Positions 10,409-20,045 of a stretch of DNA of 23,547 nucleotides are shown here, one piece after another; the first letter of the stretch is position 1, and each line of letters starts with the position of its first letter. Both the position numbers and the translations under genes were made by a program. The notes beneath the pieces are model-generated. The model had not been told where the DNA came from, searched no databases, and was given only the letters and a program-made list of their open reading frames with translations. This DNA is from a virus. The stretch covers positions 1 to 23,547 of IMG/VR virus record IMGVR_UViG_3300029448_000450; one strand, 5' to 3'.

Positions 10409-10483
10409 GCAGATGTAACTCATTGGTAGAGTGTTTCCTTGACATGGAAGAAGTAGGAAGTTCGATTCTTCTCATCTGCACCA
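10409..10483 (+). tRNA. tRNA-Val (anticodon GAC)
   Basis: A full cloverleaf can be folded by eye. The acceptor stem GCAGATG/CATCTGC has seven pairs. The D stem ACTC/GAGT has loop ATTGGTA. The anticodon stem TTTCC/GGAAG has loop TTGACAT, with anticodon GAC at 10441-10443. The variable loop is AAGTA. The T stem GGAAG/CTTCT has loop TTCGATT. The discriminator base is A and CCA is encoded at 10481-10483. Total length is 75. T33 and A37 are present. It decodes GTC and GTT valine codons. It stands alone on the plus strand between the leftward virion operon and the rightward early genes. Confidence 0.95.
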
Positions 10484-15714: not shown

Positions 15715-16419
15715 ATGGAAACTGCATTAGAGATAATAAGTATGGAAAAGGAAATAAAAAAATATAACGCTGGATTAAACAGAGTATTAAGTGAATTGGA
15801 ATTAACATCAGTTCAAGCAATACACAAAATTACTGGAATAGATAAACCAACTATTTCTAGACATTTGAACAATCAGCAAAGATTAACAGTCGATCATATG
15901 ATTACTTATTCTAAAAAACTAAACACAGATGTTAGTTTTTTTATTTCTGATAACATAGCTCGTTACCCTATTATTGGTTATTCTCACGATATTCAACCTG
16001 AAGTGCTTGGTAAAAATGAAATTGATAATCACGAATTAATCTTTTTTTTACAACGATATAAAACAGAGGGTTCAAAATTTATTTGGAATAAACCATTAAA
16101 TCATGCCATGAGATTTAATGAAAAATATCATGATGGTATATTAGGGAGTAAACTTATCAACAGTTTTTGCTTTATTAGAACAAATGATAAAATATTTGAA
16201 GGTTTGTTAGCAATAGTTAAAAGAATGGATATAGAAAATAAAACTGTTGATTTAGATCCATTGTGGAAACCATCACAATCTACTAAATATTATAAAATTT
16301 ATCCTATTGGAACTACCTATTCAATAGACTTCAACGATGCACATATACAAGTACTAGAAAATGGTAAGATATTTTTAAGTAACAAATCAATATTAGATAT
16401 TACTCAAAAAAATTTCTAA
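15715..16419 (+). CDS. Phage repressor-type HTH transcriptional regulator
   Basis: The product has 234 residues. Residues 21-70 form an XRE/lambda-type helix-turn-helix: SVQAIHKITGIDKPTISRHL followed by NNQQRLTVDHM, with the recognition helix around KPTISRHLNN. From residue 82 (ARYPIIGYSHD) a beta-rich C-terminal domain begins where LexA/CI-type repressors carry an S24 peptidase fold, but I see no Ser/Lys catalytic pair, so SOS self-cleavage is not indicated. It lies between divergent and downstream operons with inverted repeats on both sides, as a lysogeny repressor should. AAGGTG precedes the ATG; an internal ATG at 15742 is possible. Confidence 0.8.
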   Translation: METALEIISMEKEIKKYNAGLNRVLSELELTSVQAIHKITGIDKPTISRHLNNQQRLTVDHMITYSKKLNTDVSFFISDNIARYPIIGYSHDIQPEVLGKNEIDNHELIFFLQRYKTEGSKFIWNKPLNHAMRFNEKYHDGILGSKLINSFCFIRTNDKIFEGLLAIVKRMDIENKTVDLDPLWKPSQSTKYYKIYPIGTTYSIDFNDAHIQVLENGKIFLSNKSILDITQKNF

Positions 16420-16425
16420 TATTAC

Positions 16426-16462
16426 AACTTTATTATTGACTTTTTCAATAAAGTTTCATAAT
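16426..16462 (+). promoter_or_regulatory. Rightward promoter overlapped by a nine-base-arm operator
   Basis: TTGACT (16436-16441) and CATAAT (16457-16462) are 15 bases apart, a tight but possible sigma70 promoter; TAATTT at 17 bases is an alternative. Inverted arms AACTTTATT (16426-16434) and AATAAAGTT (16447-16455) flank the -35 and cover most of the spacer, so a bound repressor would exclude polymerase. The expected start is near 16470, feeding the nuclease-to-integrase operon. The arms could also act as a hairpin at the end of the repressor message. Confidence 0.55.
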
Positions 16463-16470
16463 TTTCAAAT

Positions 16471-16557
16471 ATGGCTAACATATTCGGAAAATTCATTTTA
16501 AATCCCTATTATTTTAACCGATTTCTCAATTCCCTCCTAATAATTGAGGTTAGCCAT
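16471..16557 (+). promoter_or_regulatory. Structured leader that can hide the ribosome-binding site and start codon
   Basis: ATGGCTAAC at 16471-16479, close to the predicted 5' end, is the exact inverse of GTTAGCCAT at 16549-16557, which includes the A and T of the start codon at 16556. Inside it, CTCAATT (16525-16531) pairs with AATTGAG (16542-16548), covering most of the GAGG ribosome-binding site at 16546-16549. Both stems together would sequester initiation. A 30-codon frame from 16471 to 16563, overlapping the next start, could be a leaderless upstream peptide that affects the fold when translated. Confidence 0.55.
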
Positions 16558-16714
16558 GCTTAATCCTGAGCAAAGAAAAGAACTTCAAAAAAAAGAAAAT
16601 TTTGTCAAACAGATGTGCAGAAACAATTTAAAGCATCACAGAAATTTTAAATGGGTTTGGCATCACATTAGAAACACAACAGATATAGAAAATGAAATCC
16701 ACAAAAAAAAGTAA
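16556..16714 (+). CDS. Small basic His/Asn-rich protein, first gene of the rightward operon
   Basis: ATG at 16556 has GAGG seven bases before it. The product has 52 residues: helix PEQRKELQKKENFVKQMC, then a basic aromatic stretch NLKHHRNFKWVWHHIRN and a short tail. It could bind nucleic acid and takes the place a Cro- or early-regulator gene would hold, but no helix-turn-helix is evident. It ends inside the next small gene (23-base overlap). No family is recognised. Confidence 0.6.
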   Translation: MLNPEQRKELQKKENFVKQMCRNNLKHHRNFKWVWHHIRNTTDIENEIHKKK

Positions 16715-16820
16715 AGCGTCTATAAAAGAAATTTTAAGAGTTTTAAATAAATTTGAACAAGCAACCACAACATTAAAAACGAGGTTAGAAAATGCCAACA
16801 GGCGATTACAGACTAAATAA
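16692..16820 (+). CDS. Uncharacterised 42-residue basic helical protein
   Basis: The ATG lies inside the preceding gene and the end overlaps the nuclease gene by 29 bases. The product has a basic start (MKSTKKSKASIKEILRVLNK) followed by an amphipathic helix (FEQATTTLKTRLENANRRLQ). The ribosome-binding site is weak, so coupled translation is likely if it is made. Supporting evidence is limited to the open frame filling the gap between two genes, plus plausible composition. Confidence 0.45.
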   Translation: MKSTKKSKASIKEILRVLNKFEQATTTLKTRLENANRRLQTK

Positions 16821-17433
16821 CGATAAAAAAGTTGCTGGTGTTACAACTATTATGAGTCCTTTTAAGGACCAATCAGCATTAATACATTGGGCATGGGGTT
16901 GTGGTATGAAGGGCATTGATTACAAAAAAGAACGAGATAAAGCTGGTGGTCAAGGCACATCAATACATGACCTTGCAGAAAAATATATATTAGATCAAGA
17001 ATTTGAACTCCCTGACGATAAAAAAATACAAAAGGCTTTTGCTAAGTTTGTAAATTGGTGGGATAGCCAACAATATCAAATTGTATGGACAGAAAAACAA
17101 ATGGTTTCAGAGACCTATGAGTTTGGTGGTTGTCCTGATTTACTTGTAAAAGATAAAGACGAAAAATTTGTATTAATAGATTTTAAAACAGGCAAACATA
17201 TCTACCAAGAAACTGTCATACAACTTGGAGCATACGCTAGACTCATATTTGAGAACGAAGGCAATCACATCACTAAAGGAATTATTGTAAGACTACCAAA
17301 AGACAACTCTAAATTAGAAACAAAAGAATTTAATCCTAGCCAACTAACATTAGGTTGGGATCAGTTCAAACTTTTTAGAGAGGCTCACAGTAATAATAAA
17401 ATCATCGATACTTATTTCAGGAAGGATAAATAA
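16792..17433 (+). CDS. PD-(D/E)XK exonuclease, RecB/Cas4-like
   Basis: The product has 213 residues. The nuclease core is clear: H59 in GTSIHDLAEKY, D116 in GCPDLLV, D130 and K132 in LIDFKTGK, Q144 and Y148 in IQLGAYARL. The H...D...D-x-K...QxxxY order is the RecB-family signature also seen in Cas4 and phage recombination exonucleases. There is no Fe-S cysteine set, so it is not a typical Cas4. A role in recombination or in making single-strand ends during replication is likely. GAGG lies nine bases before the ATG. Confidence 0.85.
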   Translation: MPTGDYRLNNDKKVAGVTTIMSPFKDQSALIHWAWGCGMKGIDYKKERDKAGGQGTSIHDLAEKYILDQEFELPDDKKIQKAFAKFVNWWDSQQYQIVWTEKQMVSETYEFGGCPDLLVKDKDEKFVLIDFKTGKHIYQETVIQLGAYARLIFENEGNHITKGIIVRLPKDNSKLETKEFNPSQLTLGWDQFKLFREAHSNNKIIDTYFRKDK

Positions 17434-18700: not shown

Positions 18701-18909
18701 ACAATTTAGAAAAACCCATAAAATTCAAAGAACTAGCACTACTGTTTGATGTGCATGAAAAGACCTTGAAAAAGCATTTTAATGAGCTTAGAATCAAGTT
18801 TCCTGACGAACCCTGTTTACACAGACACTTCAATAACAAACCTATAGTTTATCCTAGCGATTTGGAACGAATAAAAGAATGTCAAGTAGAACTAAAATCG
18901 GACAACTAG
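18697..18909 (+). CDS. Excisionase-like helix-turn-helix protein
   Basis: ATG at 18697 overlaps the upstream stop and follows GGAGATTGT; the product has 70 residues. FKELALLFDVHEKTLKKHFN is a helix-turn-helix of the MerR/excisionase kind, followed by a wing-like segment ending in PIVYPSDLERIKECQ. Its frame overlaps the start of the integrase gene by 31 bases, the classic position for a recombination directionality factor. It may instead be a transcription regulator. The context makes excisionase the leading guess. Confidence 0.65.
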   Translation: MNNLEKPIKFKELALLFDVHEKTLKKHFNELRIKFPDEPCLHRHFNNKPIVYPSDLERIKECQVELKSDN

Positions 18910-20045
18910 CAGTACATGAAAGACACACGAAAACCGCAAAAGGTAATATAAAAACATATTACTACGCAAGAGGAACAGTCACTTATAAAAATGAAAAAGA
19001 AACTATTGACCAAATACTAAAGCGTATAAACAATCGACCACAAGCAGAAATAGAAGTTCAAGATGTAGAGATTGCATTACTCAAAACACTTAAAGACAGA
19101 TATTTAAATAAAAATCCTGACTTTATGACTTTTAAAAAAATGACCGATCAACTTTTAGACGATCATATGGAAGCTGTGAGTCCTGAAAGACAGGGTACAT
19201 TTAAGAAAAATGCAAAAATATTAGGCAGTAAATTAATAGCTGAAATTCAACAAAGTGATATTACGCAAACAGCTTTCATTAGATATCCAAAACTTCTTGA
19301 TTATAAAGGCAAGAGACTAAATACAATTTACGATTTAGATGAAAGAGAAAAAATATCAGGGTGGTTTAGCACAGCGAACACAAATGTTATGATCCCTATT
19401 GGTAAGGTATTACATTACGCTCATCAAAAAGGTTTATGTCCATATATAAAAGTAAAATATTTTGAGACACTTAATTCTAGAAATAGAAGGCGACCTAAAT
19501 ATTCTGCGGAAGAGATAAAAAAATGTATGGAATATGAAACAAAAGATTTTGGTATTGTATCTTTGTTTGTATTTTTATTATTTAGTGGCCTACGAGTTAG
19601 TGAAGCACTTAGAATACATTGGTTGGACCTAGATATATATGAAAACAAAGTAATCGATTTAGATAATCGAACATTAAATATCTTTGCTAATAAAACTGGT
19701 ACATGGATTAAAAAACCAATGCACCCTATACTCTTTGCTTGGTTAGATAAAGTTGAAGATAAAACAGGTTATCTGTTTGAATGGCGATCCTTACATGAAT
19801 CAAAAAATGCTGATAGAGGTATTATAAAAAGGTGGAACGCTATGCAAGAATTTGCTGGTATAGAGCATCATAAAAGAAAAAAGAGACACGCTCTGAGGCA
19901 TACGATTACATCAATGCTATCTGATAATGGAGCGTCATTACAAGAATTAATGGCTTTTAATGGGTGGTCTGATGAGAGATCAGCTCTTGGTTATACTGAG
20001 ACAGGGCAAGATAAACTCGCAAAACTTATAAATAAAATTAACTAG
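18879..20045 (+). CDS. int: Tyrosine-family integrase
   Basis: The product has 388 residues. The catalytic set can be read: R239 (LLFSGLRVSEAL), K272 (ANKTGTW), H337 and R340 (HALRHTITS), W363 in the His/Trp position (NGWSDERSALGY) and nucleophile Y372. Residues 1-60 look like an arm-binding domain and 80-200 like the core-binding domain. Length fits phage integrases. It would insert the phage genome into a host attachment site. It overlaps the excisionase-like gene, and repeats that may be arm sites lie 3' to it. Confidence 0.93.
   Translation: MSSRTKIGQLAVHERHTKTAKGNIKTYYYARGTVTYKNEKETIDQILKRINNRPQAEIEVQDVEIALLKTLKDRYLNKNPDFMTFKKMTDQLLDDHMEAVSPERQGTFKKNAKILGSKLIAEIQQSDITQTAFIRYPKLLDYKGKRLNTIYDLDEREKISGWFSTANTNVMIPIGKVLHYAHQKGLCPYIKVKYFETLNSRNRRRPKYSAEEIKKCMEYETKDFGIVSLFVFLLFSGLRVSEALRIHWLDLDIYENKVIDLDNRTLNIFANKTGTWIKKPMHPILFAWLDKVEDKTGYLFEWRSLHESKNADRGIIKRWNAMQEFAGIEHHKRKKRHALRHTITSMLSDNGASLQELMAFNGWSDERSALGYTETGQDKLAKLINKIN

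Follow-up and report, generated by a model that had tools for sequence, protein, structure and literature searches.

A conserved stem at the predicted 5' end of an early-operon mRNA in relatives of SAR11 phages may gate translation from a leaderless start

The window analyzed here is a virus record of 23,547 bases (IMGVR_UViG_3300029448_000450), and the question it raises is what is achieved by the nested inverted repeats at the start of its rightward early operon, which an earlier note had read as translational control layered on repressor control. The leader that carries the repeats lies between an HTH repressor-like gene (15715-16419; + strand, as are the operon genes and leader features given below) on one side and the operon on the other. 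The operon runs, in order, through ORF A (16556-16714; 52 amino acids, basic, helical, and without a known family), ORF B (16692-16820; about 42 amino acids, overlapping both ORF A and the exonuclease gene, with a homologue, MKKNPKEKIDIQRF..., in relatives), a PD-(D/E)XK exonuclease that is the first large gene (16792-17433), an HNH protein, and other small genes, to a tyrosine integrase at its end (18879-20045). It is an early recombination/replication operon, and the integrase stands at its far end in some members only. The predicted fold of ORF A consists of two helices (pLDDT 74), and comparison of this predicted structure with the PDB returned no match.

The window terminase is nearest to those of cultured Pelagibacter phages of the HTVC010P type (50 to 52% identity), and the phages carrying the leader belong to a family of SAR11 phage relatives. 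Published descriptions of HTVC010P-related genomes present them as lytic and report that no integrase was detected (PMC6811365). Because an integrase and a repressor-like gene here accompany an HTVC010P-like terminase, the window phage looks like an apparent temperate relative of that type. All carriers of the leader element are metagenomic contigs; scanning of the cultured HTVC010P-type phages Greip, HTVC024P, HTVC204P, and HTVC010P revealed no comparable early-operon stem, and the early genes of these four phages differ from those of the carriers.

The inverted repeats were located where the earlier note had placed them. The outer stem (P1) is 9 bp long and joins ATGGCTAAC (16471-16479), which comprises the predicted mRNA 5' end and predicted leaderless start codon, to GTTAGCCAT (16549-16557), which overlaps the ORF A start codon (ATG, 16556-16558). 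The second stem (P2, hairpin 16525-16548) joins CTCAATT (16525-16531) to AATTGAG (16542-16548) and covers the Shine-Dalgarno GAGG of ORF A (16546-16549), with an anti-Shine-Dalgarno-like CCTCC (16533-16537) in its loop. When RNA beginning at 16471 was folded, the minimum-energy structure was a three-way junction that contained exactly these stems together with a further hairpin, P3 (16484-16521, paired as 16484-16492/16511-16521); the core of P3 is UCGG (16484-16487)/CCGA (16518-16521), with a G-C pair where L117 and L118 have U-A. This fold has an energy of -22.8 kcal/mol (z = -3.7), equalled by 0 of 200 shuffles, and folding of 16465-16600, the interval put forward in the earlier note, gave a z of -2.4. 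Screening of the window with Rfam covariance models at the gathering score returned tRNA alone and nothing over the leader, for which a known RNA family was accordingly rejected; a complete tRNA-Val (GAC) gene is present at 10409-10483. In 23.5 kb of AT-rich sequence, a single 9-bp stem close to an ATG is nothing unusual (several were seen in our scan) and is only modest evidence, so the significance of P1 rests on its position and its phylogeny. As to position, the boundary of the helix coincides with the AUG to within 1 nt, and when the downstream sequence was shuffled, an AUG-anchored helix of equal quality arose in about 0.08% of cases.

The predicted promoter (16436-16464) consists of TTGACT (16436-16441) and TAATTT (16459-16464) separated by 17 nt, with 8 of 12 matches to the consensus, and its -10 element ends 6 nt before the ATG at 16471. 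Because of this spacing, the window RNA probably starts at AUG 16471 itself, in keeping with the earlier prediction that the transcript begins at the first repeat element; a -10 element ending 6 to 7 nt before the AUG was found in 11 of 12 related leaders, compared with 2.4% of ATGs in the window. The repressor gene of the relative L003, at about 4028, may likewise have its start close to a 5'-terminal AUG (ATATATGGCACATG, preceded by a promoter-like stretch).

Relatives were gathered using the exonuclease, two downstream proteins, ORF A, the arm pattern, and a divergent DUF1376 gene as probes. A nucleotide search of phage records with the window gave no match, a search of genome contigs found no relative, and the repressor, used as a probe, matched only the near-identical L006. 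The repressor proteins of the window and L006 are just 86% identical and the leader and downstream DNA are 98% identical, which suggests a recombination boundary directly upstream of the leader, around 16420. In all, 12 distinct leader versions were compared, in which P1 spans 72 to 227 nt. The arms that read ATGGCTAAC/GTTAGCCAT in the window read ATGGCTAATACATTTG/TAGGTGTGTTAGCCAT in L022, ATGGCAGATTA/TAGTCTGCCAT in L002 and L003, ATGGCAGATTGCA/TGTAGTCTGCCAT in L014 and L013 (the outer two bases being lost in L013), ATGGCAGATTA/TAATCTGCCAT or TGATCTGCCAT in L161 and L168, ATGGCGAATACGA/TCGTATTCGCCAT in L146, ATGGCGAGTAAT/ATTACTCGTCAT in L153, ATGACGAGTGAT/ATCACTCGTCAT in L154, and ATGGCGAATATTCG/TGAGTATTCGCCAT in L160. 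Four further clades (L153/L156, L154, L160, and L161/L168) were reached through the DUF1376 gene, which lies outside the operon, and in each of them the top AUG-anchored helix was this stem. The two outer A-U pairs of P1 are absent from L013, L015, L016, and L020. P2 is confined to the window-like clade (window, L006, L117, and L118), where it reads CTCAGA(A)/(T)TCTGAG in L118/L117, with three pairs changed on both sides. On these comparisons, what is general in the element is its 5'-terminal stem together with the predicted leaderless frame, and the stem over the ribosome-binding site is a clade-specific addition. L117 and L118 (2573-3840) keep the leader and ORF A, and a different nuclease and next protein replace the exonuclease, an apparent module exchange behind a conserved leader.

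Over the 12 arm pairs, 91% of cells are paired, and both sides have changed at 9 of 13 pairs; L153 and L154 provide a textbook series, G4-U to A4-U and A10-U to G10-C. The covariation score of P1 is 0.57, compared with 0.23 ± 0.03 in shuffles (matched in 0 of 500, a count that is not a probability because the sequences are related), and sliding the partners, a control that retains this relatedness, lowered it to 0.03 to 0.15, in agreement with the shuffles. The compensatory changes that the earlier note had proposed looking for were thus found in the outer stem across the 12 versions and in the second stem within L117/L118. These alignments were anchored on arms already identified and lean towards structure; a blind scan of all fetched loci was therefore run, in which an AUG-anchored helix scored at least 22 at 19 of 398 promoter-plus-ATG sites and at none in the reversed-sequence control. 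Fourteen of those 19 sites are this leader element. The mismatches within P1 pairs 1 to 11, read in the mRNA sense, comprise 10 G-U cells and no A-C cells, which points to pairing in sense RNA rather than in DNA or antisense. By computation, the leader is structured, and its structure is conserved.

The 30-codon frame reported earlier (16471-16563, MANIF...EVSHA*) is present and overlaps ORF A out of frame, with its stop (TAA, 16561-16563) inside ORF A. The first frame is open in every leader version. From the +1 AUG it extends for 30 codons in the window, 39 in L117, 35 in L118, and 25 in L022, and in these four it ends in VSHA* across the ORF A start in identical relative frame, staying in frame over lengths of 78 to 120 nt with unrelated interiors; chance openness is 12 to 34% for each, with the multiple-of-three lengths still uncounted. 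The upstream frame thus overlaps the next start in the manner of a coupled upstream ORF (TAA 16561-16563 against AUG 16556, and also in L117, L118, and L022), and both calculation and covariation indicate that this downstream start is hidden by structure when the frame is untranslated. In L002, L003, L013, L014, L146, L153, L154, L161, and L168, the +1 frame is ORF A itself, as a homologue of 62 to 65 amino acids with an extended N-terminus. ORF A homologues occur in all clades but L160, which has a 16-codon frame ahead of the exonuclease; upstream-type frames range from 16 to 39 codons. In every version, the 3' arm is placed between where the first frame ends and where the next gene begins. 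The stop of the first frame falls within the 3' arm or at its edge in L153, L154, L002, L003, L014, L161, and L168, and the next start codon is inside this arm in the window type and in L161/L168. The 3' arm of L002, L014, and L146 lies just upstream of the next Shine-Dalgarno, not on it, and the first stop of L146 is 24 nt before the arm, so a ribosome at that stop may not melt it.

We consider it fairly probable that the leader is a lock at the mRNA 5' end, that is, a leaderless, self-closing translational-coupling gate. The pairing, the covariation, the anchor at the predicted +1, and the open frame in every version are the computed parts of this model, to which we add by inference the transcript start, the closure kinetics, and the direction of regulation. 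The early operon would be transcribed as a leaderless mRNA whose first base is the A of the AUG or is at most a nucleotide or two away from it. Its first 9 to 16 bases would pair with a segment where the first frame ends, a segment that adjoins the second gene's start site or overlaps it. After synthesis of the 3' arm, the RNA end would close and hide the 5' AUG; in the window type, closure would also hide both the Shine-Dalgarno of ORF A and its start codon, with P2 helping. A ribosome that loaded on the 5' AUG before closure (about 70 to 200 nt made) would hold the 5' arm open, and at the stop it would melt the 3' arm and P2, allowing ORF A to start by re-initiation or facilitated binding. 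Because of these two actions of an early-loaded ribosome, the upstream frame may be regarded as a translational-coupling device and the stem as a use-it-or-lose-it gate.

In calculations of accessibility, the upstream AUG is partly open until about 80 nt have been transcribed and mostly closed from 90 nt, and once the leader is complete, the upstream AUG and the ORF A AUG are largely paired, as is the Shine-Dalgarno (unpaired probability about 0). When nt 1 to 17 were blocked in the calculation, the Shine-Dalgarno was still shut in P2, so a ribosome would need to bind early and then translate the frame right through. In E. coli, 70S ribosomes bind 5'-terminal AUGs, which can influence the downstream cistron (PMC4965119), and coupling through unmasking or through re-initiation at an overlapping stop and start is established (PMC2268962). 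On this model, the fold probably controls the timing of early-gene translation. A more tentative form of the model, which we regard as possible, is a kinetic gate that responds to ribosome availability: the 5' AUG would be open for only a few seconds, between its own synthesis and that of the 3' arm, and each transcript would be captured at once or locked. If this were true, a phage of slow-growing, ribosome-poor bacteria would read the translation capacity of its host before committing its early operon.

Of the earlier reading, translational control is the part that is supported as the best interpretation, because the stems are compensated at the RNA level, the start is predicted at the first element, and the frame is maintained. 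The repressor layer and the lytic-integration decision are not borne out: L022, L002, L014, and L146 have the stem with no repressor beside it, and no integrase was seen in the fetched stretches of L022, L002, and L014. Because the stem occurs in such relatives, the element appears to be an early-operon leader and not a lysis/lysogeny switch as such. In another marine phage group, an Hsp20-like gene (L031, about 7416; L033, 7418; L030, 7406; all on the - strand) has a similar promoter and AUG, and an AUG-anchored 9-bp stem, ATGGCCCTT/AGGGGCCAT, ends just past its stop; this is possibly an independent instance of the same design.

Known 5'-terminal stabilizing hairpins pair from the first nucleotide, and most of the leaders likewise are paired from their predicted first nucleotide onward. 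The strongest rival to the coupling gate, which we judge unlikely and which could coexist with it, is that the chief role of the stem is to shield the 5' end of the mRNA from decay dependent on pyrophosphohydrolase and RNase E, with any effects on translation secondary. Such protection, however, leaves unexplained the position of the 3' arm, always between the first frame's end and the start that follows it, the open upstream frame with its unrelated peptides, and the two unpaired 5' bases of L013-type leaders, and leaderless translation would need to open the protecting stem. Less likely again is a regulated RNA switch, in which binding by a factor from the phage or the host, such as the basic ORF A protein or an RNA able to pair with CCUCC, sets the open or closed state. 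A C-rich, anti-Shine-Dalgarno-like motif does occur in the loop of all versions (CCUCC in most; 35 to 76 nt after the start in every leader, with a chance expectation of 1 to 7% per leader) and in differing reading frames, and the small, basic ORF A is encoded immediately downstream, but this candidate factor is absent from L160, where the stem is kept, and its fold has no structural match. Pairing of CCUCC with the next Shine-Dalgarno was considered and rejected, as it amounts to only 4 to 6 bp and is inconsistent.

It is very improbable that the repeats act as operator half-sites in DNA, bound by the repressor or by some other DNA-binding protein. Although an inverted repeat adjoins the promoter and, in some members, the repressor gene, a conserved half-site, a fixed spacing, and carriage together with a repressor were not what we found: the arms vary widely among clades, the spans differ as given above, several carriers have no adjacent repressor, G-U but not A-C mismatches occur, and the repeat ends at +1. 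Just as improbable is a functional small peptide made from the upstream ORF, with the repeat a by-product of coding constraint, since the MAN...VSHA ends common to the four open frames are merely the stem arms, the interiors of the window, L022, and L118 frames have nothing in common beyond the letters that the stem dictates, and the arms covary also in clades whose frames code for different proteins. What keeps small upstream frames in phage genomes may instead be that they are translated, and not the peptide they yield.

The proposed gate shares parts with several known systems. Attenuators of the erm and cat type also combine a short leader ORF with stems that hide the next ribosome-binding site; the phage leader differs from them in having no drug or stalling signal, no conserved peptide, a predicted leaderless start, and a stem that includes the leader's own start codon. 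Classification as an erm-type attenuator was rejected because a conserved stalling peptide is lacking, the interiors being unrelated. Lambda cI mRNA is a leaderless phage mRNA that begins at its AUG, as is predicted here, and we know of no closing stem described for it. To our knowledge, leaderless mRNAs are common and few regulatory devices built on them are known, and almost nothing is known about gene regulation in the relatives of abundant marine phages. A search of the open-access literature found no equivalent leaderless 5'-end stem locking translation, and the phage leader may represent a compact leaderless-mRNA device with strong evolutionary support. The E. coli mRNAs with 5'-terminal upstream AUGs and leaderless upstream ORFs resemble it, in its predicted form, in having an AUG at the 5' terminus and a short leaderless frame that sometimes overlaps, out of frame, a Shine-Dalgarno-led gene and can affect its expression; that work describes no conserved stem between the 5' AUG and the place where the upstream ORF ends, whereas the phage pairing is conserved across clades (Beck et al. 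2016, PMC4965119). In translational coupling, as in the gate proposed here, a downstream start hidden by structure is opened when an upstream frame that overlaps or adjoins it is translated (PMC2268962); the phage leader would differ in that the very 5' terminus of the mRNA does the hiding, which means that the upstream start codon is hidden too.
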